Assembly: GCA_017411805.1 (NCBI GenBank)
Contig: JAFQPI010000062.1
Coordinates: 1-64,000 of the forward strand
DNA length: 64,000 nt
Direction of reading: 5' to 3'
Origin: Clostridia bacterium
GTDB lineage: Bacteria; Bacillota; Clostridia; Oscillospirales; CAG-272
Positions within the stretch are counted from its first letter, which is position 1. Every line of letters begins with the position of its first letter. Made by a program: the position numbers and the translations under genes. A model generated the notes under the pieces. That model ran no database searches and had not been told where the DNA came from. It worked only from the letters and a program-made list of their open reading frames with translations. This document shows positions 248 through 64,000 of the stretch, piece by piece.

Positions 248-3088
248 GTTGCGCCTACTTATACAAATACAGGCTTGACAGAGGGATCTCATTGCTCGGT
301 ATGCGGTGTGGTAATCGTTCGGCAAAACATCATTCCGATACTTAGGAAATATGACGATCCCGAATCGTATAACGACGATTACGGTTATTCATATCTTGGA
401 ACTATGACGAAAGGCCGTTCACTTCAGAAATTCTACGATAAAATTGACGACATCGCCGAAGCATTTCATGCCAATAGCAGCGCAAATGCAAATAACAATG
501 TGGTTGGAAAGATTAATTTTGCATCATTGGGCTTGACCGATAAAGAAGCAATTTCTGTTTGGATCACTTATAAGAATGATCATCCGCTGTATTATTGGAT
601 ATCCGCTTCGGTTACGATCTCGGGTACAGAGTTGTGGCTTTTGACGGAGGATGAATATGCCAAAGGCTCAGACCGTGCAAAGTATAATGAGCTTATATAT
701 GATTCCGTTGAGGAATATGTAAGCTGTATCCTTCACGAAACGTCTGAATATCGCATAGCGCTTGCGCTTCACGATGCCATTATTTATGCTATTGATTATG
801 CATATGAGCCGGATGGATCCACACCCGAGGATGAGCTTTGGGCGCATAGTGTTTTGGGCGTGTTTGAAAAGCAGAGCGGTGTTTGTGAAAGCTATGCAAA
901 GACCTTCCAGATGCTTTTGAATTTCATGGGAGTGGAAAATGTTTTAGTAACCGGTCAATCAAAAGGTGGCAATCACGCCTGGAACCTTGCAAAAATGGAT
1001 GACGGCAAATGGTACTGGTTTGACTTGACCTGGGATGATACCCCAAATTGGATGTGGGGCATAAGATATAATTATTTTTGTGTCAATGATACGCAAGACG
1101 TAAACTGGAGGGATTTTGGGTTGAAATCCTCAGCTTCCTTCCTTGATAACCATACGATTTCTTTGCCAACCAATGAAGGTCCCGAATTTTTATATGATAT
1201 ACCCGCAAGATCAAGCACGAAGTATGAACCCGAAGAACCTCTTTTTAGGGAGAGGTTCAGTATCGGTGGACTTGATTATGCTATAGTCGGATACAATACC
1301 GCTGCATTGATCAAGATCAATATTGGAGGTAGAGTATCTATTCCCGAAAAAGTTAAGTATAATGGTACTGAGTATGAGGTTGTCGCCGTCTGCCATATGA
1401 GGGATGATTCAAAATTTGATCAAGGAAAAATGATTGACAACATATTTGAAGACACAATTATGACCGAAGTAACCATTCCAAAAACAGTGCGCTTTATTGG
1501 AGATCTCGCATTTGTGCATGCTTCACTGGAAAATATTATCGTGCATAAGGATAATCCGTATTTTGATTCGTTCGATGGTGTTCTGTTTACAGAAAACAAA
1601 TATTCGTTGGTTCAATATCCTTTAGCCAATAAGAGGACCGAGTATTATATTCCGAATGAAGTTGTAATAATTGCATATGGTGCTTTTGGACATAGAGATA
1701 TAGACCAATCTCGTTTGGAGGTGCTTACTATAGGCGCCAATGTTAAACATATCGGTATAGCAAGCTGGGGTACTAGCTATAATAATTTATATGCAATGGT
1801 AGATGGGCAATTAGGTCGAATATACAATTCATTGTCAGGGAAAAAGATAATCAAGGTAGATCCGAATAATAGTATATATGAGGTTTATGATCATGCACTT
1901 TATTCGCATTATGGTGATCATAGACTGCTTGTCGTGTTAGATAAGGATATTACAAGTATAACTATTCCAAATACTGTAATTTGGATAGCACAAAATGCGT
2001 TTGAAGGTTGTACACGTCTCACAAACGTTGCTCTTCCTAATGGAATAACCTACATTGGCCCATACACTTTTAGGAATTGCACAAGTCTTGTAAGCATTAC
2101 GATTCCTGATGGTGTTACAAGTATTGACGAAAGGGTATTCTCAGGTTGCACAAGTCTTGTAAGCATCACGATCCCAGATAGCGTTACAAGCATTGGTGAT
2201 GGGGCCTTCAGTGGTTGCACAAGTCTTGCAAGCATCAAAATTCCCGATGGTGTTTCAAGTATTGGTTATGTGGTGTTTCATGGTTGCACAAGTCTTACAA
2301 GTATCACGATCCCCGATAGCGTTACAAGTATTGGCAGAAGTGCATTCTCAGGTTGCACAAGTCTTGTAAGCATCACGATCCCAGATAGCGTTACAAGCAT
2401 TGGTGATGGGGCCTTCAGGGGTTGCACAAGTCTTACAAGCATCACGATCCCAGATAGCGTTACAAGCATTGGTGATTGGGCGTTCCTTGGCTGCACAAGT
2501 CTTGCGAGTATTATGATCCCCGATACCGTTACAAGTATTGGTGATAATGCATTCCAAGATTGTACAAGTCTAGCAAGTATTACGATTCCAATGGATGTTT
2601 TGAGCATTGGAGCTGCGACATTCCATAATTGCACAAGTCTTACAAGTATCACGATCCCGGATGGCGTGATAATTATTGATACGAGTGCATTCTCGAATTG
2701 CACAAATCTTGCAAGCGTCAAGATTCCCAATAGCGTTACAAGTATTGGCGATTGGGCATTCTATAATTGCACAAGTCTTACGAGTATTATGATCCCCGAT
2801 ACCGTTACAAGTATTGGTGATAATGCATTCCAAGATTGTACAAGTCTTACAAGCATCACGATCCCAGATAGTGTAACAAGCATTGGTGAGATGACATTCT
2901 ATAATTGCACAAGTCTTACAAGTATCACGATCCCAGATAGCGTTACAAGCATTGGTGATTTGGCATTCTATAATTGCACAAGTCTTGTTGACGTATATTA
3001 CGCAGGTACCATGGAAGAGTGGAATCAAATAATAATAGAATTGGGTAACGAAGATCTCAAGAACGCTACGATCCACTATAAAAGTTAA
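2..3088 (+). CDS. BspA-type leucine-rich-repeat surface protein with transglutaminase-like domain (5' end outside window)
   Basis: The frame is open from base 2, so the start and any signal peptide lie upstream; the first in-frame start-like codon (TTG at 68) sits inside a repeat and is not a believable start. Order of parts: Cys-rich 41-residue repeats (APTCTQTG ... HCSVCNAV), then a transglutaminase-like core at about 785-1080 with the Cys (GVCESYA), His (NHAWN) and Asp (DLTWDD) of the papain-like triad, then a linker, then 14 LRR_5 units of 23 residues (CTSLTSITIPDSVTSIGDGAF type), ending in a YYAGTMEEWNQI tail typical of these proteins. Probably exported and involved in adhesion or surface binding; the transglutaminase-like part could be a protease or cross-linker. 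Function is inferred from domains only. Confidence 0.9.
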   Translation, partial: VAPTCTQTGLTEGKHCSVCNAVLVSQKTVNALGHTEVIDKAVAPTCTQTGLTEGKHCSVCNAVLVSQKTVNALGHTEVIDKAVAPTYTNTGLTEGSHCSVCGVVIVRQNIIPILRKYDDPESYNDDYGYSYLGTMTKGRSLQKFYDKIDDIAEAFHANSSANANNNVVGKINFASLGLTDKEAISVWITYKNDHPLYYWISASVTISGTELWLLTEDEYAKGSDRAKYNELIYDSVEEYVSCILHETSEYRIALALHDAIIYAIDYAYEPDGSTPEDELWAHSVLGVFEKQSGVCESYAKTFQMLLNFMGVENVLVTGQSKGGNHAWNLAKMDDGKWYWFDLTWDDTPNWMWGIRYNYFCVNDTQDVNWRDFGLKSSASFLDNHTISLPTNEGPEFLYDIPARSSTKYEPEEPLFRERFSIGGLDYAIVGYNTAALIKINIGGRVSIPEKVKYNGTEYEVVAVCHMRDDSKFDQGKMIDNIFEDTIMTEVTIPKTVRFIGDLAFVHASLENIIVHKDNPYFDSFDGVLFTENKYSLVQYPLANKRTEYYIPNEVVIIAYGAFGHRDIDQSRLEVLTIGANVKHIGIASWGTSYNNLYAMVDGQLGRIYNSLSGKKIIKVDPNNSIYEVYDHALYSHYGDHRLLVVLDKDITSITIPNTVIWIAQNAFEGCTRLTNVALPNGITYIGPYTFRNCTSLVSITIPDGVTSIDERVFSGCTSLVSITIPDSVTSIGDGAFSGCTSLASIKIPDGVSSIGYVVFHGCTSLTSITIPDSVTSIGRSAFSGCTSLVSITIPDSVTSIGDGAFRGCTSLTSITIPDSVTSIGDWAFLGCTSLASIMIPDTVTSIGDNAFQDCTSLASITIPMDVLSIGAATFHNCTSLTSITIPDGVIIIDTSAFSNCTNLASVKIPNSVTSIGDWAFYNCTSLTSIMIPDTVTSIGDNAFQDCTSLTSITIPDSVTSIGEMTFYNCTSLTSITIPDSVTSIGDLAFYNCTSLVDVYYAGTMEEWNQIIIELGNEDLKNATIHYKS
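2009..2974 (+). repeat. Fourteen 69-bp leucine-rich-repeat units
   Basis: Exactly 14 x 69 bp, each one 23-residue LRR_5 unit starting at its Cys codon. Bases 2505-2571 and 2781-2847 are identical over 67 bp, exactly four units apart, so units are being copied within the gene. Confidence 0.9.
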
Positions 3089-5106: not shown

Positions 5107-6214
5107 GATCAAGGTCACGCATATTCTGACCGATTCGAATATCGGCGGAGCAGGCAGACTTCTTCGCTATCAGCTCGAGAAGGCAGACCGCGAGAGATTC
5201 GAATACAGCGTCATCCTCCCCGAGGATGCGGCGCTGATCCCCGAGATCGAGGCGCTCGGCATCCCCGTCATTACCGTCTACGGTATCGCCGACAGATCCA
5301 CCGCGCCCGATATGAAGGGAATCCTTACCGAAAAGATAAAGTCGCTCGCGCCCGATATTCTGCATACCCATTCCTCAAGAACGGGCAGATTTGCGGGAGT
5401 TGCGGCGGGCGTACCGAAAATAATCCTCTCCAAGCATTGCTCGGACATGCCGCCCGCGCAACTTATGAAGTTCCCCTATAAGCAGATGCTCGTAAGGGAA
5501 TGGAAGAAGACGCTCCACGGCGCGATCGCGACCGATGACAGCGCGGCTGATTCGATCGCGGCAGAGGCACTTTCCCGCGATAAGATCACGGTGATATACA
5601 ACGGCGCCCCCGCGCTCCCCGTTTTATCTGACGGGGAAAAGAGCTCGCTTAAAGCCGAGTTCGGTATTCCCGAAAAATCATTTGTCGTTGGTATCTTTGC
5701 GCGCATCGAGCCCGTCAAGGATCACGATAAGTTTCTTGATATCGCAACAGAATGCATCGAGCGCGGACTTGATGACGTATATTTCCTCATAGTCGGTGAC
5801 GGAAGCAAGAGAGATTACGTCGAGGACTATATCAAGGATAGCGAATACGAGGGAAGGATCAAGACCACGGGATTTGTCCCCGATATTGCGCCGCTTATGA
5901 ATATCTGCGACGTGAACGTAAATTGCTCGGTCGGAACCGAAACGTCAAACCTCGCACTCATCGAGGGCATGAGCCTCGGAGTCGTGCCCGTGGTGTCCGA
6001 TCTCCCCGGTAACGAAAGAATTGCCGAAGGTTGCGGAATCGTCTGCGACCGAAACGATTACGAGGAGTTTGCCGATGCTATCGAGAGCCTTTACCGCGAC
6101 AGAGAAAAGCTTTCCGCGCTTTCAATTGCCGCAAAGGAAAAGTATCTTGCAAAATACACCTCCGAGAGATTCGCGCGCGAGGTTGAGGAATACTATCTTC
6201 AGTTAATGAAGTAA
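5090..6214 (+). CDS. Family 4 glycosyltransferase (GT-B fold)
   Basis: 374 residues. N-terminal acceptor domain starts with VTHILTDSNIGGAGRLL, a glycine-rich loop typical of GT4 enzymes; the C-terminal donor domain has GIFARIEPVKDHDKFLDIA, FLIVGDGS and the ExxxxxxxE-like segment NLALIEGMSLGVVPVVSD. It should transfer a sugar from a nucleotide-sugar to a lipid, protein or polysaccharide acceptor; the substrate cannot be read from sequence. No signal peptide; likely cytoplasmic or membrane-associated. It starts 17 nt inside hom in another frame, so the two are probably translationally coupled. The 3' end overlaps the convergent symporter gene by 16 nt. Confidence 0.85.
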   Translation: MQSSAKIKVTHILTDSNIGGAGRLLRYQLEKADRERFEYSVILPEDAALIPEIEALGIPVITVYGIADRSTAPDMKGILTEKIKSLAPDILHTHSSRTGRFAGVAAGVPKIILSKHCSDMPPAQLMKFPYKQMLVREWKKTLHGAIATDDSAADSIAAEALSRDKITVIYNGAPALPVLSDGEKSSLKAEFGIPEKSFVVGIFARIEPVKDHDKFLDIATECIERGLDDVYFLIVGDGSKRDYVEDYIKDSEYEGRIKTTGFVPDIAPLMNICDVNVNCSVGTETSNLALIEGMSLGVVPVVSDLPGNERIAEGCGIVCDRNDYEEFADAIESLYRDREKLSALSIAAKEKYLAKYTSERFAREVEEYYLQLMK

Positions 6215-7530
6215 TTCATAGTTTCCTTACGTATCCTTTGCCTTTCAAGAATAAGTACCGAAATATTTATCAAGGTCATAATTCCGATAGAAAGATCGGC
6301 AAGCCCCCATACAGACCCCGGCGGCGTTCGTGATGCTACGATCGCCGCCGTTCCGTATGCGACCGTCAAAAGCACCTTCGCGGCTTTGCTTTTTGTCAGA
6401 TAAGAAAGACACTCCTGACCGTAAAAGCATTGGCAAAATACCGTTGCAAGCCCGAAAAGGAGCACAAGTCCGCACATCACGGGATCTGCCCAATCTCCGA
6501 GTGCTTCGGAATACGCCGAGACCGTCATCATCACGGAATTGTCGCCGAAACGCTCGACCTCGGGATAGCTTACGAGTATGACGAGAGCGGTCAGCGTGCA
6601 GAGAAAGACCGTGTCGATCAGAACCTCGATTATGCCGAGAAAGCCTTGTTCTACCGGTGAATCGGTCGATGACGTTGAATGAGCCATGGGAGAGGTTCCC
6701 GCACCGGCTTCGTTGCTGATAAGACCGCGCATAACTCCGAGCCGCACGCTCTTTGATATGAAAAAACCGCCGACACCGCCGAAAATGCTTGAGGAACTAA
6801 AATCAAATGCAGACTCAATGATCTCCGCGATCGCGTTCGGTATCCTCTCCGATCTGATGATAAGTGCGGCAATGGACAGAAAGCAAAACAGAATGGTCAT
6901 AAAGGGAACGATCCTGCTTGTCGCGGCCGATATCCGCTTGAGTCCGCCCGAGGAGACGACTATCATCAGCAGAGCACAGACGGATCCCACGATCAACGGA
7001 TCGATATTCAGAATATCATCGCAAACTCCGACCATAGCGTTGACCTGAATTATGCACCCGAGCGAGAGCGAATTGACAAGGCAGAGAATGGCAAAGATCA
7101 CGCCGAGAAATGCACCGATATGCGGATGTCTCCTTTCGGCGAGCGAATCCTTTATATAGTCTGAGGTGCAGGACGGATGATTCTTCTTTCTTCGCGAGAG
7201 GGCAAGAAGCGTTTCCGCATACTTTAAAATTGCCGCTATGGCGGCTGAAGCGCACATCCAAAATACAGCCCCCGCACCGCCGAAAAAAATTGCGGAAGAA
7301 ACGCCGACGATGTTACCTACTCCGAGAACACCGCCGAGAGCAAGCCAAAGCGCGGATCGTGGACGTACGTTGCCTCTGCCATTTGATTCGTTTTTCAAAA
7401 ACGGCGCGATTATCGCAAGCGGTCGTAATAAAGGTAAGCCGTTCATATATATAATAAAGAACAGACCTGTTCCGATCAGAAATACGGGCAAAACGCTGCC
7501 GATAATAACGGAATTTATAAATTCCAGCAT
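6199..7530 (-). CDS. Alanine/glycine:cation symporter (AGCS family)
   Basis: 443 residues with about ten membrane segments. AGCS hallmarks: ALGGVLGVGNIVGVSSAI near residue 65, GGAGAVFWM, and RGLISNEAGAGTSPMAHS. The family imports small neutral amino acids (Ala, Gly) with Na+. It is shorter at the C-terminus than many family members but the core is complete. AAAGGGGTGAT about 6 nt upstream supports the start. It stands alone and converges on the glycosyltransferase gene with a 16-nt overlap of the two 3' ends, with no room for a terminator between them. Confidence 0.9.
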   Translation of the reverse strand: MLEFINSVIIGSVLPVFLIGTGLFFIIYMNGLPLLRPLAIIAPFLKNESNGRGNVRPRSALWLALGGVLGVGNIVGVSSAIFFGGAGAVFWMCASAAIAAILKYAETLLALSRRKKNHPSCTSDYIKDSLAERRHPHIGAFLGVIFAILCLVNSLSLGCIIQVNAMVGVCDDILNIDPLIVGSVCALLMIVVSSGGLKRISAATSRIVPFMTILFCFLSIAALIIRSERIPNAIAEIIESAFDFSSSSIFGGVGGFFISKSVRLGVMRGLISNEAGAGTSPMAHSTSSTDSPVEQGFLGIIEVLIDTVFLCTLTALVILVSYPEVERFGDNSVMMTVSAYSEALGDWADPVMCGLVLLFGLATVFCQCFYGQECLSYLTKSKAAKVLLTVAYGTAAIVASRTPPGSVWGLADLSIGIMTLINISVLILERQRIRKETMNYFIN

Positions 7531-10858: not shown

Positions 10859-12367
10859 TCAGTCGTAGTATTTTGCAAGTCCGTTCAAGAAATTCTCTAT
10901 GCTCTTGCTTGAAGTTTTGGAAGCGGTCTTGATTGCGGAAACTACACCGCCGGTATTGCCGGCTTTTGCCTGAGACCAGATGTTGCTCTCGAGACCTGTG
11001 AGCTTTGCAGCCTGGTCAAGGTCAAACGTCTTGGAATCGAAGAAGATATCAAGCATCTGTGTGTCCTCGGGAGAACGTGCAAGACGGTAGTCAGCGAGAA
11101 CGTAGTAGAAAGCATCGCGAAGGCTTGCGTTGGATTCGGAAATGGTGAATCGCGAGTAGTATGTAATAGCCTCGGTTACGAGCATTGCGTTCTCAACGTC
11201 CTTGAGGTTGGAGGGGAAGGAAAGAGGATGGTGGTTACCACCGGATACGTAGCAGTAGTACTCGTTGCTCTCGCCGTCATTCGGAACGGGAAGGATACCG
11301 TAATCTGCTGTCATCTCAAGAAGACCGTTTACAGAGGAGAGCGCGCAGGAACGGAAGAGTGCGTTGCCGCTCTTGAATACCTTGGTTGCATTGTTCCAAA
11401 CGTCATTTCCGCCAAACCATTCGCCGTTATTTACGATCATAACGTCGGGATTCTTTGCGAGCTGAATGGTCTTCTGGAGCGTGTTGGATACCGATTCGGA
11501 TTCGATATTTACTGTGAATTCTCCGCGATTGTTGGTGACGGTCTTTTCACCGTGACCAAGGAAGAAGTAGTAGGGAGCGGAAACTTCGCTTACCATACCC
11601 CACATGCCTTCCTCGCTTGCGGGCTCGGAGGTAACGCCCTTGATCATCTCGATAAGGGTGTCGTACGTCCACTTGTTGCTTTCAACAAGATCGTAGGGAG
11701 TTCCGTAGAGAGTGTTGAAATTGTAATTGTTGTAGAGTTCCTTGTTGAATATTACGCAGATGGTACGAAGCTCGTCAAGCATGTTCATATCGCCCTCAAG
11801 GGTGAAGAGATGATCGCCGATGAGATATTCTTCCTGAATACGCTGGTCCCACCAGGGCTGTTCGAGTTCAAGACCTTCAAGGTCCATGATGTCAAGAACG
11901 TAGCCTGTGGTAGCCGCTTTGATCGTGTCGGTTCCGGGAAGATAAAGAGCTTCGCAAAGATCGGTTCCGGTAGAAACGTGGTTTCCGAGAGTCTGGAGTG
12001 CCTTGGAGTCGATAGTGTACTCAAGCTTGCATCCGTAGGTCTCTTCGATGAATGCTTCGCGGCGGTAAAGAGCGTCATCGATAACGTTGCCGTTCTGCTC
12101 GCCCTCTTCGTTGAAATGCACGGGCATCCACATTGTGTTGCTTACAACAAAAACGCGATAGGTGTAGCCGGAGAGATCCTTGATCTCGGGCGTGGGAATA
12201 GAAGTGGTGACTTCATCGGTCACACCGCCCGAGGTTGTGGCATTACCTTCGGGCTCATTTGTTTGGGCATTGCTTTCAGTGGGATCGATCGGCGTTTCCG
12301 AGCATGCAACGATCATGGGCAGAAGCACGAGAAGAGCGCAGATCAGGGAAATGATGCGTTTTTTCAT
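10859..12367 (-). CDS. Extracellular solute-binding lipoprotein
   Basis: 502 residues from the ATG at 12367, chosen because AAGGAG lies 9 nt upstream and it begins a proper lipoprotein signal (MKKRIISLICALLVLLP, lipobox VAC-S). The longer in-frame extension upstream is inside the preceding gene. After a Thr/Glu linker comes a two-lobe periplasmic-binding fold of the family 1 sugar-binding type: YTYRVFVVSNTMW, VIDDALYRREAFIEETYGCKLEY, WWDQRIQEEY. It probably binds a sugar or oligosaccharide at the outer membrane face. No ABC permease or ATPase is nearby. Second gene of an operon behind the mutarotase-like gene (31-nt gap). Confidence 0.85.
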   Translation of the reverse strand: MKKRIISLICALLVLLPMIVACSETPIDPTESNAQTNEPEGNATTSGGVTDEVTTSIPTPEIKDLSGYTYRVFVVSNTMWMPVHFNEEGEQNGNVIDDALYRREAFIEETYGCKLEYTIDSKALQTLGNHVSTGTDLCEALYLPGTDTIKAATTGYVLDIMDLEGLELEQPWWDQRIQEEYLIGDHLFTLEGDMNMLDELRTICVIFNKELYNNYNFNTLYGTPYDLVESNKWTYDTLIEMIKGVTSEPASEEGMWGMVSEVSAPYYFFLGHGEKTVTNNRGEFTVNIESESVSNTLQKTIQLAKNPDVMIVNNGEWFGGNDVWNNATKVFKSGNALFRSCALSSVNGLLEMTADYGILPVPNDGESNEYYCYVSGGNHHPLSFPSNLKDVENAMLVTEAITYYSRFTISESNASLRDAFYYVLADYRLARSPEDTQMLDIFFDSKTFDLDQAAKLTGLESNIWSQAKAGNTGGVVSAIKTASKTSSKSIENFLNGLAKYYD

Positions 12368-56610: not shown

Positions 56611-58305
56611 TTATTTGGAAGGTTCGAAGGCGGTTTTCAGATTTTTATACTTTAAATCCGCGGATTCGCGATCGGGTGCGCATACACAGTAATAGAACTT
56701 GCATTTTGGCTCTGTTCCGCTTGGACGAACGGCTACCCAGCATCCATCCTCAAAGATGAAACGAAGCACGTCAGAGGTGGGGAATCCTGCAGCCTTGGTT
56801 TCTTCCGAAAGATAATCTTCAGTCTTGATGATTCGGACACCGCTAACCTCGGAGGGTGCGGAGCTTCTCAGCGAGCCTGTCAGAGCGGATATCTTTTCCT
56901 TGCCTTCAAGACCGGGGAAATAGAAGCTCGATTGAGCGTCAAGGAAATAGCCGTGCTCGGAGTAGATCTTTTCGAGTACGTCAATGAGCGTCATACCGTA
57001 ATTTTTGTAATATGCTGCCGCTTCACAGAGCATGAGGGATGCCTGGACACCGTCCTTATCGCGGACAAAATCCGAAATGAGACAGCCGTAGCTCTCCTCG
57101 TATCCGAAAACGAATCCGTAATCGCCCGCGGCGCGGTGCTTGGCAATTTTCTCGCCGATAAATTTGAATCCCGTCAAGGTCTTTTCTACCTTGACACCGT
57201 ACTTATCGCAAATGCGGTCTCCGAGGTCGGAGGTGACGATCGTGGTCAGCATATAAGGATCGGAGTGCAATGAATTGTCGGCAGTTCTGCGTGAGAGAAT
57301 ATATTCAAGAAGAACCGCGGCGGATTGGTTGCCTGTCATGAGAGTCATTTTGCCCGACTGATCAAGAGCCGCAACGCCGAGACGGTCGCAATCGGGGTCC
57401 GTGGTTATAACGATATCGGCAGAGGTTTCTTTGGCGATCTTCAAAGCTTCTGTATAAGCCTTGGGAGACTCGGGATTGGGGGATTCGGTGCCCGAAAAAT
57501 CGGGATCAGGCTCGCATTGCGAAAGAACGGGGATCACGTCATATCCGCAATCCGAAAGAACACGGCGAACCGGGATGTTTCCGGTTCCGTGCTGAGGGGA
57601 GTAGATTACCTTAAGCTTTGCGGCACTTTCTCTGTCGCGTGCGATGGAAATGTTTTCAACGCGCATTGCGTATTCGTCGTCGATCGAGGGATCAAGCGTA
57701 ATGATCATGTCGCCGGCATCCTCAAGCTTGAGGCAGGGAACGCGGAGCTCATCCTTGATTTTGGAGACGAGAGAAATGACCTTCTCGCTTTCTTCAATAG
57801 AAAGCTGACAACCTTCGGAATCGTATATTTTGTATCCGTTGTATTCGGGAGGGTTATGCGAAGCCGTGATCATGACGCCACCTGCCGCACGCAACTTGCG
57901 AACAGAGAATGAGAGCATGGGTGTGGGGCGGAGTGAATCAAAGATATAAGCCTTTACTCCCGAAGCAGCGAAAACACCCGCAGTAGCAAGCGCAAATTCT
58001 CGTGAGCAACGGCGGTTATCGTGCGAAATAACAACACCTTTTTTTGCGGCGTCCGCGCCGAGACTCTTGATATATTCGGCAAAGGCAAGGCTTACACGCA
58101 TAACGGTATAGATATTCATTCTTCCTATACCCGCGCCGAGTATACCGCGCATACCGCCCGTGCCGAATCCAAGCTCGGCGGCAAAACGCTCTGCGATCGC
58201 CTTTTCGTCGTCCTTTATTGAGATCAGCTCGGACTTCAAGGACTCGTCAAGACCCTCGAAATCAAGCCAACGCTTGTAATCATTCATGTATCTTTCGGAT
58301 GACAT
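56611..58305 (-). CDS. pgcA: Phosphoglucomutase/phosphomannomutase
   Basis: 564 residues. All four family motifs: the phosphoserine loop GGVMITASHNPPEYNGYK, the metal loop TTDPDCDRLG, the sugar loop GYEESYG and the phosphate loop VRPSGTEPK. It interconverts glucose-1-phosphate and glucose-6-phosphate, linking galactose and glycogen use to glycolysis and to sugar-nucleotide synthesis. Length fits the long PgcA/ManB type of Firmicutes. AGGAGT 8 nt upstream of ATG 58305. Single gene with its own promoter. Confidence 0.95.
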   Translation of the reverse strand: MSSERYMNDYKRWLDFEGLDESLKSELISIKDDEKAIAERFAAELGFGTGGMRGILGAGIGRMNIYTVMRVSLAFAEYIKSLGADAAKKGVVISHDNRRCSREFALATAGVFAASGVKAYIFDSLRPTPMLSFSVRKLRAAGGVMITASHNPPEYNGYKIYDSEGCQLSIEESEKVISLVSKIKDELRVPCLKLEDAGDMIITLDPSIDDEYAMRVENISIARDRESAAKLKVIYSPQHGTGNIPVRRVLSDCGYDVIPVLSQCEPDPDFSGTESPNPESPKAYTEALKIAKETSADIVITTDPDCDRLGVAALDQSGKMTLMTGNQSAAVLLEYILSRRTADNSLHSDPYMLTTIVTSDLGDRICDKYGVKVEKTLTGFKFIGEKIAKHRAAGDYGFVFGYEESYGCLISDFVRDKDGVQASLMLCEAAAYYKNYGMTLIDVLEKIYSEHGYFLDAQSSFYFPGLEGKEKISALTGSLRSSAPSEVSGVRIIKTEDYLSEETKAAGFPTSDVLRFIFEDGCWVAVRPSGTEPKCKFYYCVCAPDRESADLKYKNLKTAFEPSK

Positions 58306-58340
58306 TCAAGTACTCCTGTTCAAAAAAATAATACTCTAAT

Positions 58341-58369
58341 ATTATACTACATTGCAGAAGAATTTTCAA
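58341..58369 (-). promoter_or_regulatory. Promoter of the phosphoglucomutase gene
   Basis: Minus strand TTGAAA (58369-58364), 17-nt spacer, TATAAT (58346-58341). Confidence 0.7.
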
Positions 58370-58455
58370 GTGGTAGAAAAAGAAAAAATACAGAATCGAC
58401 CGCAGGATGGGACAAAATGGGATGAAAAATGACAAAAACAAGATTTGCATATATA

Positions 58456-58495
58456 AAACAAGGGCAACCCGAAGAATTTCGGATTGCCCTTGTTT
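58456..58495 (-). terminator. Intrinsic terminator at the left end of the hairpin region
   Basis: AACAAGGGCAA...CCGAA pairs with TTCGG...TTGCCCTTGTT, one mismatch; on the minus strand TTTTATAT follows. The gene-free stretch 58306-58856 holds this, the hairpin array and two more hairpins. Confidence 0.7.
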
Positions 58496-58562
58496 GCCTA
58501 TGTGCTACAAAAAAGATATTTTTGCTGTTTTTGCGTATGAATTCGAACTCTTGCAGAAAATG

Positions 58563-58761
58563 AAATCCTTGCTACGCAAGGATGAAATAAGCTGACGCTG
58601 ATGAAATCTTCGGCTTTGCCTCAGATGAAATTAAATCCACCCATCCGCCGTCGAGGCGGATTTCATCCAACGAAGTTGGATTTCATCGTCGAAGACGATT
58701 TCACCCACCCGCAAGGGTGGATTTAGTTGAAAAACCGACAAGTCGAAACTCGTCGGTTTTT
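58563..58761. ncRNA. Multi-hairpin structured element with two competing pairings
   Basis: A row of stems, each opened by GAAATC- or TTTCATC-type sequence: ATCCTTGC/GCAAGGAT (58565-58583), an ATCT..GGC/GCC..AGAT stem (58606-58626), ATCCGCC/GGCGGAT (58643-58661), ATCCAAC/GTTGGAT (58665-58681), ATCGTC/GACGAT (58685-58699), CCACCC/GGGTGG (58705-58720). AAATCCACCC at 58633-58642 can also pair perfectly with GGGTGGATTT at 58715-58724, enclosing three hairpins and replacing the last one. An intrinsic hairpin AAAAACCGAC/GTCGGTTTTT (58730-58761) ends it. Either strand could be the functional one. Role unknown; could be a mobile-element RNA or a conserved intergenic repeat. Confidence 0.6.
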
Positions 58762-58762
58762 C

Positions 58763-58773
58763 TGGTGCGAGTG
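58763..58773 (-). other. Acceptor-end-like tRNA fragment (CGCACCA) joined to a terminator
   Basis: Minus strand CACTCGCACCA directly followed by the AAAAACCGAC terminator hairpin. It has the end and position of the fuller copies at 60211, 61296 and 62688 but lacks the T-arm. Confidence 0.5.
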
Positions 58774-58784
58774 TTCATAACGAA
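58768..58784 (+). repeat. 17-bp inverted repeat, left copy
   Basis: CGAGTGTTCATAACGAA; the exact reverse complement is at 60191-60207. The pair flanks the HTH-TPR regulator. Confidence 0.8.
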
Positions 58785-58797
58785 AGTCAAGAATCGC

Positions 58798-58849
58798 CTT
58801 CGTGCCAATACGGCACGAAGCTTTGAAAAAGCCCCGCACGAGGCGGGGC
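58798..58849 (-). terminator. Hairpin pair after the regulator gene, including its terminator
   Basis: GCCCCGC/GCGGGGC (58831-58849) followed on the minus strand by TTTTTC; next to it CTTCGTGCC/GGCACGAAG (58798-58820). Confidence 0.8.
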
Positions 58850-58856
58850 GAAAGTG

Positions 58857-59855
58857 TTATCGTCTTAAGTTTTGAATTTCTCTTTTTGCCCAATCTACAC
58901 ACTCACCGTCTTTTATACCGTAGTCATCGGCAAGAGCTTTTATAATATTCTCCCACATTTGAATCGCCTTTTCTTTTATGCCGATGTTAGTATACAAAAA
59001 CGCCAGTGCATACAGAGGATCCATTTCTTTAGGAGAAGGAGCAACTTCATAGGACTGCTGATATAATTTCAATGCAGTTTCTGTATCATTGATTTTGTTG
59101 CATCTTTCTGCAATTTCAAAAAGAAGATGGCTGTCATTATAATTGGCTAATGCAGCAGAAGCCCAAATGCTTTTGGCACTTTCTTTGTTTCCAAATGCAA
59201 GCTCGATATCTCCTTTATAAACATCGAAAATAGTTTCTTTTTTGGATGAGCTCATCAAATTAGTCGCATTATCATACTTTCCATATTTAATGTAAACGGA
59301 TATTAATGCATCGATTACAGCAATATTTTGGATGTACTTTGAATATAGAGTTTCAAGAAATTTTATAAGACGATCTGCTTCGTTTCGCTTTTCTCTGATA
59401 CGTGTTAGTTTGCCAATTAGAGCAATATTGGATGGCTCGATTAACAATCCTTCTTCGCAAAGACGTCCACCTGCGAGCGAATCTCTGTTTTCTCGATGCT
59501 CATACAATTCCACAAGTAAAGTACGTGCAGTGTTATTTTGCTTTTCTTCGCTAAGCAATCCCTTCAAATACCTTTCAGCCCATACAAAGTTTTCGGGAGT
59601 GATCGAATACTCGTCACGAATCATTTTGCTGATTCTTTCTATATAGTCATCTTGATTCATAGAAAACAATGCGTCCATACTGACGCCGAAAAACAATGCA
59701 AGTTGCGGAAGGATGGCAATATCCGGTGTGGTTGTGTTTGTTTCCCACTTGGAAACTGCTTGATAAGAAACACCCATTTTGTTCGCGAGTTCTTCTTGCG
59801 TTATCCCTCGCTCAGTACGAAGCTTTTTTATAATTGTACCCAATTTAAGTTCCAT
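58857..59855 (-). CDS. XRE-family regulator with C-terminal TPR repeats
   Basis: 332 residues. HTH_3 domain at about 7-62 (LGTIIKKLRTERGITQEELANKMGVSYQAVSKWETNTTTPDIAILPQLALFFGVSMDALF, split in helices), then about ten TPR-like helical pairs (ENFVWAERYLKGLLSEEKQN ... PLYALAFLYTNIGIKEKAIQMWENI). Such regulators may bind peptides with the TPR part. GGAG lies upstream of the ATG. It has its own strong promoter and is enclosed by 17-bp inverted repeats. Target genes cannot be read; the neighbouring accessory genes are candidates. Confidence 0.9.
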   Translation of the reverse strand: MELKLGTIIKKLRTERGITQEELANKMGVSYQAVSKWETNTTTPDIAILPQLALFFGVSMDALFSMNQDDYIERISKMIRDEYSITPENFVWAERYLKGLLSEEKQNNTARTLLVELYEHRENRDSLAGGRLCEEGLLIEPSNIALIGKLTRIREKRNEADRLIKFLETLYSKYIQNIAVIDALISVYIKYGKYDNATNLMSSSKKETIFDVYKGDIELAFGNKESAKSIWASAALANYNDSHLLFEIAERCNKINDTETALKLYQQSYEVAPSPKEMDPLYALAFLYTNIGIKEKAIQMWENIIKALADDYGIKDGECVDWAKREIQNLRR

Positions 59856-59899
59856 AAGGATATCTCCGTATTACAAATATTTTATCAGCTGACAACCAT

Positions 59900-59928
59900 A
59901 TTATACTCCTTACGTCAGTGCAGGTCAA
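59900..59928 (-). promoter_or_regulatory. Promoter of the regulator gene
   Basis: Minus strand TTGACC (59928-59923), 17-nt spacer, TATAAT (59905-59900). Confidence 0.8.
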
Positions 59929-60019
59929 TAACTGCGTATTAGAAATGACTCGCCCCCTAAGCGAATTTTTCTTTGTTATTCAACCATATATATCAATATT
60001 TGAGAAAGGAAGTGATCCA

Positions 60020-60067
60020 ATGAACATCGGTTACTCCGAAAGTGGCGGATTTCGTCCGATACTGTAG
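60020..60067 (+). CDS. Possible 15-codon leader peptide
   Basis: ATG-to-TAG frame coding MNIGYSESGGFRPIL behind AAAGGAAGTGAT. Two hairpins follow (AAACG/CGTTT with GGC/GCC at 60078-60097; CTTTGC/GCAAAG at 60103-60116). No plus-strand gene follows, so a leader role is not supported by context; it may be chance or a relic. The 59856-60210 gap otherwise holds only the regulator promoter. Confidence 0.25.
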   Translation: MNIGYSESGGFRPIL

Positions 60068-60169
60068 CAATCATAGCAAACGTGGCTACGCCCGTTTACC
60101 GTCTTTGCACGCAAAGGCACTTTAGGAAAGTCTCTCTAATACCCTCGTTTACAAACAGAGAAATAAAAA

Positions 60170-60209
60170 ATCGAGTGTCCATAACTCAAATTCGTTATGA
60201 ACACTCGAT
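60170..60209 (-). terminator. Intrinsic terminator after tRNA-like copy 1
   Basis: Minus strand ATCGAGTGTTCATAAC, loop, GTTATGGACACTCGAT, then TTTTTTATTT. Its arm contains the right copy of the 17-bp inverted repeat (60191-60207). Confidence 0.85.
60191..60207 (-). repeat. 17-bp inverted repeat, right copy
   Basis: Reverse complement of 58768-58784; forms one arm of the terminator at 60170-60209. Confidence 0.8.
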
Positions 60210-60210
60210 A

Positions 60211-60286
60211 TGGTGCGGGTAACAGGACTTGAACCTGCACCTCCTTGCAAAGACTAGAACCTGATGGTAACGTCACCTCGGTGAAA
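60211..60286 (-). other. tRNA-Leu 3'-half-like element, copy 1
   Basis: Read on the minus strand, 76 nt from TTTCACCGAGG to CGCACCA. The last 55 nt (60265-60211) match a tRNA-Leu from the anticodon loop on: ATCAGGT, TCTAG, variable arm CTTTGCAAGG, T-arm GTGCAGGTTCAAGTCC, acceptor strand TACCCGC, ACCA. The first 21 nt do not supply the D-arm, 5' acceptor strand or 5' anticodon stem, so it is not a complete tRNA. It starts 5 nt after the stop of the YitT-like gene and ends against a terminator. It differs from copy 3 by one base. Confidence 0.75.
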
Positions 60287-60291
60287 TGTTT

Positions 60292-61176
60292 TTAAACACG
60301 CCGCTTGAAATTTCCAAAGACCTCACTTACCTTTTCAAAGCTGGCAAAGGTGTCGGGATAGCTTTTTATGATCTTCATCATTTCACCGATTTGGCGCTTA
60401 TTTATGATACATACCAGCATATATTTGTCTGTATTCGAATACATTCCATGTACTTGTATGTTCGTAACACCGTGATGCAATCGATTTATAAGATCTTTGG
60501 ATAACTGTTCGGGATTATTTGTAACGATTTCAAACTTATAACCGTTTTTAATTCCACTCAAGCCGTGGTCTACGATGACGTTGGCAATAAACAAATTCAA
60601 CAAGGTGCATATAACAGGGGTAATTTTCATTCCGTAAACAAAGAACGCAATAAGTACTACGCTGGTGTCCATAATGAAAGAAACATAGGCGATATTCATT
60701 TCGGGTCTCATTTTTTTGATCAATGCGGATATGCCGTATGTACCGCCGCTTGCACCAAAGCGCTTCAACATTAAGGAAAAGCCAAAACCCGATATAACTC
60801 CCGTTGCGATACAGGCAAAAACGATATTGAAATCACCTTGGTTATTTGCTAAACTGTAGGGCTTTGTACCAATTATTTCATAAAGGCGGGGTATGAAGGA
60901 TTGAACAATCATATACAGACTCAAAATTGCGCCAAGTTTTTTGTTAATAAAGGCACTGACTAAAATAAAAATTGGCAAATTGAAAGCAACCATTAAAATT
61001 GACCAACTGACTTTGTCCGCAAATAAGTAGTGTGTGATAGTTGCGAGTCCCCCAACACCTCCGGGGGCAAAACCGTTGCTGTTTTGAAAAAAATAATATG
61101 CGCTACCGACAATTATTCCTGCCGTTATTGCATAAAGCATATCAAATATAAGAACCTTTAAGTATCTTTTTTTCAT
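60292..61176 (-). CDS. YitT family membrane protein
   Basis: 294 residues. Five or six membrane helices (LKVLIFDMLYAITAGIIVGSAYYFF, GFAPGGVGGLATITHYL, GFGFSLMLKRFGASGGTYGISALI) then the cytoplasmic DUF2179 domain (YKFEIVTNNPEQLSKDLINRLHHGVTNIQVHGMYSNTDKYMLVCIINKRQIGEMMKII, in parts). Family members are widespread in Firmicutes with no settled function; some affect spore germination or transport. GAGGAA upstream and a consensus promoter. It is followed 5 nt later by the tRNA-Leu-like element. Confidence 0.9.
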   Translation of the reverse strand: MKKRYLKVLIFDMLYAITAGIIVGSAYYFFQNSNGFAPGGVGGLATITHYLFADKVSWSILMVAFNLPIFILVSAFINKKLGAILSLYMIVQSFIPRLYEIIGTKPYSLANNQGDFNIVFACIATGVISGFGFSLMLKRFGASGGTYGISALIKKMRPEMNIAYVSFIMDTSVVLIAFFVYGMKITPVICTLLNLFIANVIVDHGLSGIKNGYKFEIVTNNPEQLSKDLINRLHHGVTNIQVHGMYSNTDKYMLVCIINKRQIGEMMKIIKSYPDTFASFEKVSEVFGNFKRRV

Positions 61177-61211
61177 TTTTAATTCCTCGCAAATGTTTTT
61201 TGGTGATTGTT

Positions 61212-61240
61212 ATTATAGCATTTGTATGTAAATTTGTCAA
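61212..61240 (-). promoter_or_regulatory. Promoter of the YitT-like gene
   Basis: Minus strand TTGACA (61240-61235), 17-nt spacer, TATAAT (61217-61212). Confidence 0.85.
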
Positions 61241-61256
61241 TAGGATATAACAATGG

Positions 61257-61295
61257 CCCAAAGCCTAGAAAACGTAGTGTTTTCAAGGCTTTGGG
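61257..61295 (-). terminator. Hairpin after tRNA-like copy 2
   Basis: CCCAAAGCCT-GAAAAC pairs with GTTTTC-AGGCTTTGGG, one mismatch, 5-nt loop. The T-tract is weak, but it holds the same place as the terminators after the other copies. Confidence 0.65.
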
Positions 61296-61391
61296 TGGTG
61301 CGAGTAAAAGGACTTGAACCTGCACGGAGGTAACCTCACTAGGACCTGATGGTTGTGTCACTTTAGCGACACGTCATCATACTCGGTGAAA
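61296..61391 (-). other. tRNA-Leu 3'-half-like element, copy 2
   Basis: 96 nt on the minus strand, again starting TTTCACCGAG and ending in ACTCGCACCA. From ATCAGGT it reads CCTAG, a clean variable arm GAGG-TTA-CCTC, T-arm GTGCAGGTTCAAGTCC and the acceptor strand. The 5' part is longer and holds a hairpin GTGTCGC-TAAA-GTGACAC in place of GGTGACGTTACC. It begins 3 nt after the stop of the decayed gene at 61395. Confidence 0.75.
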
Positions 61392-61394
61392 GGT

Positions 61395-61562
61395 TTAGTC
61401 TTTTCCGTCGGGATAGTTGCTTACTGAGATCTCTCCCGTTTCAATATTTACCGAAGTAATTTCAAGATGCTCGTGATAGCTATTGATTGCCGCCTCATAC
61501 ATTTCCATAGCGATCTCGGACTCTGTAATATGTGTATCGGTGGTATCGTTTGCGCGATCCTT
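61395..61562 (-). pseudogene. Remnant of a lipoprotein gene related to the one at 62767
   Basis: About 55 codons open to a TAA at 61395 with no start and an in-frame TAG just upstream. The N-terminal part (HITESEIAMEMYEAAIN) matches residues near 50-70 of the intact protein (SISEAEKAMQMYEAAIN), and the end (TSVNIETGEISVSNYPDGKD) matches its C-terminus (LVNASTGKIREYVETEVDGKG). About 200 codons between these parts are missing, so it looks like a start-less, internally deleted copy. Confidence 0.7.
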
Positions 61563-61636
61563 CTAAATCGAGTCAGAAGGGGGATTCTCGTTTTGTGACG
61601 GAGCATAGGTGGAAAAAACGGTGTGTTACAATATCA

Positions 61637-62485
61637 TTAAAGTTTTTCAAAAAAAGCCCTGGTTTTCCCGTAAAGATCAAAGGAATGCCACGCGATGGCA
61701 ATGTTTTCATTGTAATTTATATAAAGACATTGCCCCCTCATTCCGCCTTTTGCATATCCTTTTCCTTTTTTACTGAATTCATAACCGCGATCCAGTACAA
61801 GGTCGATCCATTCTTGTGATAGGATTCTTTCTCCGTTCCATAAGCCGTTATTCAAATAAATACGCCCAAGCTTTACTACGTCCTCTGTGCGCAAATAAAG
61901 TCCGGTTGCTCCAACAGGATAGTTTTTGGGGCATTTTGACCACGCAACTTCACGACAGCATATTTTATTAAAAAGACGATCCATAAGAAACTCATCAAGC
62001 TTCTCGCCGCATATTTTGGTTACGATACGGGAAATAAGATAGTATGCGGCATCCGAATAAACCCTGATCGTTCCTGGATCATACGTTAACTCGTGGTCAA
62101 GTACAATAAATAGAAAATCATCCGTAGGGTAGGTTGTAATGTCTTCTGTGTCAATATCGAGAAAGCCTTTGGAAAAGCCAATTTCATGACGCAAAACATG
62201 ATCGATCGTAACATGTTCCCATTTTTTTTGAGGAATTCCATACTGCTTTAGCTCATCAGCAAAAATATCCGCGATCGTTGTATTTGTTGAGAGCTTCTTT
62301 TCGTCAAAAAGCATTCCAATTGCCGTTACGCAGAAAACCTTGGCGACTGAATAACAGTTTTGGCAAGGATTTGCCGGTATTCTTTCAAGAGTCTCGATTC
62401 CTTTTTCTGTAGAAACACTAAAACAGTATGTATTTATATCATCTTTTTGGGCAATATTATTAAGCTTTGTCAGTATATCTAACAT
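61637..62485 (-). CDS. Serine hydrolase of the beta-lactamase fold
   Basis: 282 residues from ATG 62485 (GGAGAAAAA upstream; the TTG five codons earlier is inside that site). Class C-like motifs: YSVAK (SxxK) near residue 50, YSDAAY (YxN-like, Asp for Asn) near 155, and a C-terminal GKGYAKGGMRGQCLYI / IAWHSF region where the KTG-like strand lies. No signal peptide, so cytoplasmic; probably an esterase or peptidase rather than a resistance enzyme. It is not followed by a tRNA-like element in the window. Lower GC than the left part of the window. Confidence 0.85.
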   Translation of the reverse strand: MLDILTKLNNIAQKDDINTYCFSVSTEKGIETLERIPANPCQNCYSVAKVFCVTAIGMLFDEKKLSTNTTIADIFADELKQYGIPQKKWEHVTIDHVLRHEIGFSKGFLDIDTEDITTYPTDDFLFIVLDHELTYDPGTIRVYSDAAYYLISRIVTKICGEKLDEFLMDRLFNKICCREVAWSKCPKNYPVGATGLYLRTEDVVKLGRIYLNNGLWNGERILSQEWIDLVLDRGYEFSKKGKGYAKGGMRGQCLYINYNENIAIAWHSFDLYGKTRAFFEKL

Positions 62486-62550
62486 TTTTTCTCCAATCAA
62501 GTAAGTGTGATTATTGTATCGATGTGGCAGAGATGCTTTTTATCATTTAC

Positions 62551-62579
62551 AGTATAGCATAAAAGAAAGGGAAAAGCAA
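62551..62579 (-). promoter_or_regulatory. Promoter of the serine hydrolase gene
   Basis: Minus strand TTGCTT (62579-62574), 17-nt spacer, TATACT (62556-62551). Confidence 0.65.
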
Positions 62580-62649
62580 GGGAAATGCGCAAACATTGCC
62601 TGCTATCAACTTCTTGCGTTGGGAAATTTCTGCGAGCCGATCACTCAGA

Positions 62650-62690
62650 CCAAAACAATAGGGACGGCTTTGCCGTCCCTATTGTTTTGG
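62650..62690 (-). terminator. Perfect 19-bp hairpin after tRNA-like copy 3
   Basis: Arms 62650-62668 and 62672-62690 (core CAATAGGGACGGC), 3-nt loop. The CCA of the tRNA-like element is the first base group of the stem. Confidence 0.8.
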
Positions 62691-62763
62691 TGCGGGTAAC
62701 AGGACTTGAACCTGCACCTCTTTGCAAAGACTAGAACCTGATGGTAACGTCACCTCGGTGAAA
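62688..62763 (-). other. tRNA-Leu 3'-half-like element, copy 3
   Basis: 76 nt, one base different from copy 1 (variable arm CTTTGCAAAG). It begins 3 nt after the stop codon of the lipoprotein gene and runs straight into a perfect hairpin. Confidence 0.75.
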
Positions 62764-62766
62764 GGT

Positions 62767-63762
62767 TCATCCTTTTCCGTCAACTTCAGTTTCTACGTAT
62801 TCTCTAATTTTTCCCGTAGAAGCGTTCACTAATAATTGCTTATATATTCTAATTTTATGAGGTGAATTACTTTCCCACCCATCATAAACGTGTGAAGAGT
62901 ATTCAAGTTGCAAAGCAATGCGATAATAATTCGTATCCGAATTCGGCGTATCGAGTAACACAACCTTGCTAATAATAGTTGTTCCAGCCGCCCCCTCTAC
63001 GCGACAATCTGCATCATTCCAATATGTGTTTGCCAGATTCCATGCTTGATTCGCTGTTATAGGATAAGAACAAGTCAACTCAAACGGAGAAAATGACATT
63101 CTCGTTTTGGGGTTGTAGTTGTAATAACTCAAAAATTCATCTCTGGTAACAGATTCTCCGCCCATGTAATATGCATCGATTTCTGCGGTTAAATATTGAA
63201 TACTGTAGATGTTTTTTATAGTTAGCGTTTCTCCCTCAAAGATAATTTTGTTTAATCCGACTTCACAATTACCTGCTACGGAAGAGTCTTTCCAATAAAA
63301 AGTTCCGTCTGTGTTTAAATTATAAAAATTGCTGATACCAAAGCCATAACTATAAACTTTGTCGTCATAATAATGTAAAACAATACAATCGTTATCGGGC
63401 GATTTAATAACATATTCATTGACTCCGTCCTGATCCAAATCCAAAATGGCTTTCGCAAGTAATTTACACTCATCTATCCTTGCGTTATTGCTTGGAAAGC
63501 GGCAGGCTTTCAGCTTGATCTCGCCCAAATGTTCATCAATAACGCAGATTTTATCATTGATCGCCGCTTCATACATCTGCATAGCCTTTTCAGCTTCGGA
63601 GATTGACGGATTAACATTATCATCGTTTGTATTACCATCATTAACATCGGATACACCGCCATTTTCGTTTGACGATAGATCATCTTTATCATCATTAAAA
63701 TTACACGAAATCAGCGATAGTATCATTATCAGGCACAGCAAAAAAGCTATATATTTTTTCAT
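62767..63762 (-). CDS. Lipoprotein of unknown function
   Basis: 331 residues. Lipobox LISC at about 20, then an Asn/Asp-rich linker (DDKDDLSSNENGG) and a folded domain with ILDLDQDGVNEYVIKSPDND, a calcium-loop-like DxDxDG segment, and aromatic strands (LQLEYSSHVYDGWES). I do not recognise a family; the LDLDQDGVNEYV part is like FG-GAP/VCBS-type propeller repeats, and one repeat is too little to name it. AAGGAG upstream, consensus promoter. It precedes tRNA-like copy 3 and has a decayed relative at 61395. Confidence 0.82.
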   Translation of the reverse strand: MKKYIAFLLCLIMILSLISCNFNDDKDDLSSNENGGVSDVNDGNTNDDNVNPSISEAEKAMQMYEAAINDKICVIDEHLGEIKLKACRFPSNNARIDECKLLAKAILDLDQDGVNEYVIKSPDNDCIVLHYYDDKVYSYGFGISNFYNLNTDGTFYWKDSSVAGNCEVGLNKIIFEGETLTIKNIYSIQYLTAEIDAYYMGGESVTRDEFLSYYNYNPKTRMSFSPFELTCSYPITANQAWNLANTYWNDADCRVEGAAGTTIISKVVLLDTPNSDTNYYRIALQLEYSSHVYDGWESNSPHKIRIYKQLLVNASTGKIREYVETEVDGKG

Positions 63763-63794
63763 TAAAAGTCTCCTTGTTTTTATCTCTCAATGCT

Positions 63795-63823
63795 ACTATA
63801 CCATATCAAAAAAACGATGTCAA
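63795..63823 (-). promoter_or_regulatory. Promoter of the lipoprotein gene
   Basis: Minus strand TTGACA (63823-63818), 17-nt spacer, TATAGT (63800-63795). Confidence 0.8.
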
Positions 63824-63887
63824 TATGGTGGGGAAAAGTTTGTTTAAAAGGCACTTTTTGAGGTCAAAGTGGTGAAAAAATCCTAAA

Positions 63888-63932
63888 AAGCAAAAAAGGA
63901 GCGAAAGCTCCTATTTTGCTGGTGCAGGGAAC
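63888..63932 (-). other. Acceptor-end-like fragment plus terminator
   Basis: Minus strand GTTCCCTGCACCA (63932-63920) followed by the hairpin AGGAGC-TTTC-GCTCCT (63912-63897) and TTTTTGC. A reduced copy of the element-plus-terminator unit. Confidence 0.5.
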
Positions 63933-63967
63933 AAAAAGAAATCCGAACCTTTTGGGTTCGGATTTCT
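63928..63967 (-). terminator. Intrinsic terminator after the copy at the right edge
   Basis: Minus strand AGAAATCCGAACC, 5-nt loop, GGTTCGGATTTCT, then TTTTGTT. Confidence 0.85.
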
Positions 63968-63973
63968 ACTGTT

Positions 63974-64000
63974 TGGTGCGTGTAACAGGACGTGCCCCTG
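63974..64000 (-). other. tRNA-Leu 3'-end-like element, copy 4 (cut by window edge)
   Basis: Minus strand ...GTCCTGTTACACGCACCA, same acceptor end as copies 1 and 3 but with an altered T-loop (GGGGCACGTCC). The rest lies outside the window. Confidence 0.6.

Follow-up and report, generated by a model that had tools for sequence, protein, structure and literature searches.

Results

Repeated tRNA-Leu 3' halves

What process leaves the 3' half of a tRNA-Leu behind one gene after another? The question is raised by the 64,000-nucleotide stretch of Clostridia bacterium DNA analysed here (positions 1 to 64,000 of contig JAFQPI010000062.1, assembly GCA_017411805.1; Oscillospirales, CAG-272), referred to as the window, which ends in an array of such halves. 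The units of this array are very likely scars (attR) of small elements that inserted serially in the anticodon loop of one tRNA-Leu(CAG). Each element would have carried a complete replacement tRNA-Leu(CAG) and would have been inserted by a large serine recombinase (LSR).

The tRNA-Leu 3'-half units described in the initial annotation are real, running from the anticodon loop to CCA and then into a hairpin (Table 1). Three are complete within the window, a fourth is cut by its end, and a fifth, degenerate unit lies near 65190, at the end of the 65,229-base contig (C60) that contains the window. In every unit, a 21-nt block TTTCACCGAGGTGACGTTACC, interrupted by an insertion in unit 2, leads through the core ATCAGGT into the 3' half of a tRNA-Leu down to CCA. 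Behind each window unit stands a hairpin with a T run, which differs from one unit to the next. ARAGORN finds no tRNA in the window. In an Rfam scan of positions 58000–64000 the units have no match, and a nearby Gut-1 RNA is the only match above cut-off. Elsewhere in this assembly (2.46 Mb, 84.7% complete), contig C25 terminates within a tRNA-Leu (GCGGGTATGGCGGAATTGGCAGACGCGCTAGATTC) whose acceptor and anticodon strands could base-pair with the unit 3' halves, which suggests that the assembly is broken at the insertion point of the array.

The reading of ATCAGGT as a tRNA anticodon loop holds for TCAGGT. It does not hold for the first A, since the intact tRNA-Leu(CAG) reads TTCAGGT, and the junction therefore falls within TCAGGT. 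By their composition, the window units are hybrid attachment sites (attR), in which the arm of a mobile element is joined to the 3' half of a tRNA-Leu(CAG).

Distribution and layout in relatives

The 28-nt block and core, with up to three mismatches, occur in 18 of the 295 family genomes, including that of the window, and in 10 of the 71 genera. The backwards control of this search has no match in the same 295 genomes, so the matches are not due to chance. A degenerate unit pattern recovers 33 stretches in genome contigs, all from metagenome-assembled genomes, with record names of Clostridia, Clostridiales, Oscillospiraceae, Ruminococcus or Mageeibacillus.

Fourteen wider loci (L052–L057, L060, L061, L063, L064, L068, L135, L143 and L146) have the same layout: an intact tRNA-Leu(CAG), 0.5–9.6 kb of cargo, a unit and, at times, further units with their cargo, with everything on the same strand as the tRNA. 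Every unit found is downstream of the tRNA in 13 of these loci. The head element, between the tRNA and the next unit, often contains a single gene. This layout supports one of the two origins first proposed for the units, in which elements inserted serially or gene cassettes carry a 3' site derived from a tRNA. Complete 5' halves beside every copy, which the initial annotation named as evidence to the contrary, were looked for and were not found; a single intact tRNA serves the whole array.

Attachment sites

Among 47 distinct sites, the arm and core are conserved, and no position further than 6 nt ahead of CACC exceeds 0.3 bit, which is close to random. For 17 of 22 units, none of 23 other tRNA-Leu(CAG) sequences gives a better match than the one at the unit's own locus. 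In lineages with a different host anticodon stem, the unit carries that stem behind an identical arm. The opposite junction (attL) is made up of a tRNA 5' half, TTCAGGT and the inverted arm, and is recovered by pattern in 5 of the 295 family genomes. Two attL scars are stacked before the intact tRNA in L108, L178 and L180. In L108, the sole promoter-like sequence seen by eye is upstream of both scars.

Locus L128 (1663–1706) contains a 44-nt arm-core-arm palindrome, ATCACCGAGGTGACGCTACC-ATCA-GGTAATGACACCTCGGTGAT, and an intact tRNA-Leu(CAG) follows 74 nt further on. The palindrome agrees with the attP predicted from attL and attR. The attP and attB share only the short core TCAGGT, about 6 bp. 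In viral contigs, the exact unit pattern, the attL pattern and the degenerate unit pattern have no match; seven viral stretches that match the attP-core pattern are without arms and were discarded as chance.

These junctions could also be those of a DDE-type transposon, with the arms as terminal inverted repeats from GGTAACG, TCA as a short target duplication and the tRNA gene as a hot spot. The ends are inverted repeats and TCA is present at both junctions, but an extra A separates the repeat from TCA on one side only, and the link to LSR genes described below is left unexplained. The head-element open reading frame lists that were read contain no transposase, although no screen with transposase models was made. 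Such a transposon is a very improbable source of the units.

A cassette shared between genera

The window stretch that ends at the core of unit 2 is nearly identical to locus L055 of G270, a genome of another genus (Table 1). The alignment breaks immediately behind ATCAGGT, beyond which the 3' halves and terminators differ. Identity ending at the core would be expected had the same element entered a different resident tRNA in each genome. The housekeeping gene pgm, beside the window array, has 65–66% identity to G270 (two stretches). Single-gene cassettes appear to be exchanged between genera of gut and rumen Clostridia. A restored acceptor pairing in unit 2 was considered and rejected, as the L055 partner breaks the pairing.

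The second origin first proposed was a tRNA mimic that shapes mRNA 3' ends. Under this explanation, a functional tRNA-like end would act in RNase Z/CCA processing or stability and would have spread by duplication, and CCA is followed by a hairpin in many units. Placement directly behind a stop codon, also emphasised in the initial annotation, is common without being general. Among 51 related sites, 19 have a reading frame of 100 aa or more whose stop falls in the 15 nt ahead of the block CACC. Nor does this placement call for more than a passive scar, since the arm is the right end of the element, just past its final cargo gene. Of 48 units, 28 contain the T-loop motif GTTCAANTCC and 30 contain GCACCA. 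Palindromic repeats of about 85 nt interrupt the T-loop part of attR units in L143 (11714–11870) and L098 (3705–3862 and 5255–5412). Unit 2 and its L055 partner have an identical arm and differing 3' halves, and attL sites have no such role. A functional mRNA end is the least credible of the explanations considered.

The donated tRNA

Insertion scars and the adjoining intact tRNAs differ in sequence. In L109, the ousted 5' half begins GCGGGTA, and the adjoining intact tRNA begins GCGGGCA and ends TGCCCG. The acceptor strand of the ousted 5' half also differs from that of the intact tRNA in L155, L176 and L180, and in L054 the two differ by one anticodon-stem base. A leader, CCTCGGAG...CTCCGTGTAAAAATTAAA, lies between the inverted arm and the tRNA in several loci. 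The element is predicted to bring its own complete tRNA-Leu(CAG), and the simplest circle would have the order attP, leader, tRNA, terminator, promoter, cargo.

Hairpins that combine the 5' strand of the tRNA with an inverted copy of it (GCGGGTAT...ATACCACGC and the like) are present between the promoter and tRNA-Leu(CAG) in L055, L056, L063 and L108. In L063 this hairpin is repeated.

The candidate recombinase

In L059, an attR unit with an arm two mismatches from that of the window ends an element that contains a relaxase and an LSR. At an E value of 1e-80, this LSR is matched in at least 3 of the 295 family genomes, its own and those of L155 and L156. The LSRs of L155 and L156 both adjoin an attL and a tRNA-Leu(CAG). 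The L156 LSR is matched in at least 9 of 394 order genomes. These counts are lower bounds, with up to four candidates per genome scored for the L059 query and up to three for the L156 query.

The clade formed by these LSRs is a single fork with support of 100/100 (15 rows, 13 distinct) and is present in 11 distinct genomes. Resolvase, Recombinase and Zn-ribbon domains are found in all members checked (L059, L155, L156, L174, L178, L179, both of L180, L181 and L182). A tRNA-Leu is near the LSR in 9 of the 11 genomes, at distances of 79, 109, 169, 190, 403, 975, 2209, 3944 and 5627 nt, six of them within 1 kb. An attL is present in 7 of the 11: L155, L156, L174, L176, L178 (two), L180 (two) and L181. 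The tRNA used in L180 and L181 is tRNA-Leu(TAG). L059 shows attR only, and L183 (3,991 bases), which shows neither attL nor tRNA-Leu, is too short to tell. The order in L156 is attL, leader, tRNA, hairpin, LSR, relaxase. Of twelve LSR genes outside the clade in the loci analysed, 10 lack a tRNA-Leu on the stretch available, and another is separated by 4.7 kb from the L179 tRNA. From this linkage, the integrase is likely a member of the LSR clade.

Insertion with tRNA replacement may be real and yet due to another recombinase, either a tyrosine recombinase or Xer acting in trans, with the LSR genes as passengers or as users of the same target. The domain lists alone do not name the integrase: PF00589 proteins are present in 32 of 32 array genomes searched and PF07508 in 28 of 34. 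Head elements are without an LSR, and a tyrosine recombinase lies 7 kb from the L128 attP. Association of clade LSRs with attL and tRNA-Leu, in the proportions given above and across several families, argues for the LSR instead. A palindromic attP and a short shared core also suit serine integrases, as a passage of PMC3783163 describes them. A different recombinase is unlikely.

Several observations weigh against LSR-mediated serial insertion. Regions from tRNA to next unit were screened by phmmer with nine serine and tyrosine recombinases, and none of the 14 head elements contains a recombinase. The newest elements thus lack one, and action of the LSR in trans must be assumed. No clade LSR is found in the genome of the window at 1e-80, in an assembly of the completeness given above and with 4 of 10 first-look candidates scored, and PF07508 is not found in 6 of the 34 array genomes. 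No single contig spans an LSR element from end to end. In L179 and L182, the LSR and tRNA-Leu(CAG) are present but an attL is not visible. In L023, a locus chosen because of its tRNA, an LSR from outside the clade (1160–3081) is separated by 92 nt from an intact tRNA-Leu(TAG), before which stands a short 5' fragment of a tRNA-Leu; this is perhaps a second serine lineage that uses tRNA-Leu. Five of the 22 units fit the tRNA of another genome better than their own. In L146, one unit (3913) precedes the intact tRNA, and a decayed copy of tRNA-Leu lies at 11023; simple nesting does not predict this arrangement. The L128 palindrome is in a linear chromosomal contig, not circular when checked, behind a hipA-like gene, and a joined attP in this position is unaccounted for.

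Other LSR candidates were set aside. The L058 LSR (5326–6978), which precedes a unit by 1 kb, was dropped as a member of another clade, and the truncated LSR of L141 was not used. Short reading frames in L055 (15985–16353) and L144 (179–439) that scored against the L058 LSR were taken as probable cassette-start sequence read in frame. The reading frame of the L058 LSR extends into the cassette start at GGTGCACCA. L180 (8434–11390) and L181 (10355–13319) each contain an adjacent pair of LSR genes, of which the second is shorter.

Proposed mechanism

Taken together, the loci probably represent a helper-dependent cassette system of gut Clostridia, with a serine integrase acting in trans. A circular element carrying attP, leader, a whole tRNA-Leu and cargo would be joined by the integrase to the anticodon loop, splitting the resident tRNA. 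The promoter and old 5' half would become the leader scar (attL), and the old 3' half would remain as a scar behind the cargo (attR). The old promoter would then read through attL into the donated tRNA, restoring tRNA function, and the donated tRNA would serve as a fresh attB. Repeated insertion would pile old 3' halves and cargo downstream, with the youngest element nearest the tRNA. Small cassettes that lack a recombinase would be moved in trans by the LSR.

Each cassette would in this way destroy and recreate its landing site by donating a whole tRNA. One-way integration could be repeated without limit, building integron-like arrays and replacing the CUG-reading tRNA of the host with foreign copies. 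Serine integrases do not recombine attL with attR in the absence of a helper factor, according to a section of PMC3783163, so the scars would be stable. If correct, the mechanism is a simple answer to how an irreversible integrase builds arrays, each insert supplying the next target. It would also provide natural attP/attB pairs and a way to trace how mobile DNA replaces a host tRNA.

Comparison with known systems

LSR elements are among the closest known systems. As in LSR elements, the attP is palindromic, the shared core is short and attL and attR are hybrids. An LSR attP is pseudo-palindromic and about 50 bp (size from a passage of PMC3783163), with attB alike only in a short core, and the 44-nt L128 palindrome with its core TCAGGT agrees with this. 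Site-specific integrative mobilizable elements with an LSR are matched by L156 and L059, where the LSR is beside a relaxase (PF03432). The small array cassettes do not have a relaxase beside an integrase. Serine elements of this kind are described in an extract of PMC5704250 as disrupting dispensable genes; here the target is a tRNA anticodon loop and the element donates the whole tRNA.

A passage of PMC4383910 reports serine integrases as not known to target tRNA genes, a generalisation to which a serine lineage attacking tRNA genes would be contrary. In streptococcal integrative conjugative elements, the serine targets listed in a section of PMC4701971 are rumA, mutT, traG and hsdM. In the relevant portion of PMC10654092, tRNA sites are given for tyrosine integrases only, and neither there nor in the corresponding part of PMC12904643 is a serine integrase reported in a tRNA gene. 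The word 'tRNA' has a count of 0 in the available text of a large LSR survey (PMC10083194). The titles and beginnings of abstracts listed in literature searches contain no description of such a system.

Tandem arrays with a tRNA gene as attB, an intact tRNA at one end and a fragment at the other are shared with Islander-type tyrosine-integrase islands. Classical island accretion at a tRNA 3' end would make the repeated 3' halves direct-repeat att sites, and the anticodon loop is a common tyrosine-integrase subsite (excerpt of PMC4383910). In such islands, the same excerpt states, a tRNA fragment within attP makes the split gene whole again. Here the arms are unrelated to the tRNA, attP has no tRNA half and both halves are left behind, with the intact tRNA apart behind its own leader. 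The head elements have no tyrosine recombinase in the phmmer screen, and the linked recombinase is an LSR. Duplication of att sites by a tyrosine integrase, as the initial annotation considered, does not fit these sites and is highly improbable.

Accretion of cis-mobilizable elements (CIMEs), in which recombinase-less cargo elements bounded by att sites stack at one target (extract of PMC5704250), is a further likeness. The head elements may be of this kind: no recombinase is found in them by a screen that covered serine and tyrosine recombinases, and attL is visible in part of the loci only. They differ from CIMEs in their small size, often that of one gene, and in the tRNA that every insert would bring along as a new target.

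Integrons share the arrangement of promoter, gene and site in cassette arrays, and by analogy the recombinase is probably supplied from elsewhere. Here the site is a tRNA gene and the youngest insert adjoins the tRNA; no sign of attI, attC or IntI was seen, although no search aimed at them was made. Tycheposons are small cargo elements at tRNA genes that have a tyrosine recombinase and restore the tRNA 3' end. The cassettes are similar in cargo and location and differ in whole-tRNA replacement.

Cargo and neighbouring features

Cargo in L054, L061, L063 and L132 includes a Fic protein, a peptidyl-arginine deiminase, a DNA methylase and an AbiEii-type toxin gene with its neighbour. Such genes are frequent in mobile elements. 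The window cargo is listed in Table 1. The next gene beyond unit 1 may be distal array cargo, and CTCGCACCA is possibly a remnant of the oldest tRNA 3' end.

Table 1. Coordinates of array units, cargo and adjoining features in the window
Feature	Position	Strand	Remarks
CTCGCACCA, then hairpin	58763..58771	-	from sequence; possible remnant
Helix-turn-helix/TPR protein	58857..59855	-	next gene beyond unit 1; putative array member
Hairpin with T run	60173..60208	-	directly behind unit 1; from sequence, by eye
attR unit 1	60211..60286	-	arm 60266-60286, core ATCAGGT 60259-60265, tRNA-Leu 3' half, CCA at 60211
YitT-type membrane protein (PF02588, PF10035)	60292..61176	-	cargo; stop 5 nt before unit 1
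attR unit 2	61296..61391	-	arm with internal insertion; core ATCAGGT 61344-61350
Stretch 98.9% identical to L055	61344..62705	-	1350/1365 aligned columns, 3 gap columns; ends at core
Beta-lactamase-family serine hydrolase (PF00144)	61637..62500	-	cargo; cassette common to window and G270
attR unit 3	62688..62763	-	arm 62743-62763, core 62736-62742
Putative lipoprotein	62767..63762	-	cargo; no Pfam match; stop 3 nt before unit 3
attR unit 4, 3' part	63974..64000	-	continues to 64050 of contig C60

Two matches to Gut-1 RNA (RF01706) lie at 58558–58729, adjoining the distal end of the array; one exceeds the family cut-off and the other falls short of it. A stretch resembling this region of the window is also found 3' of a tRNA-Leu(TAG) in contig C47.

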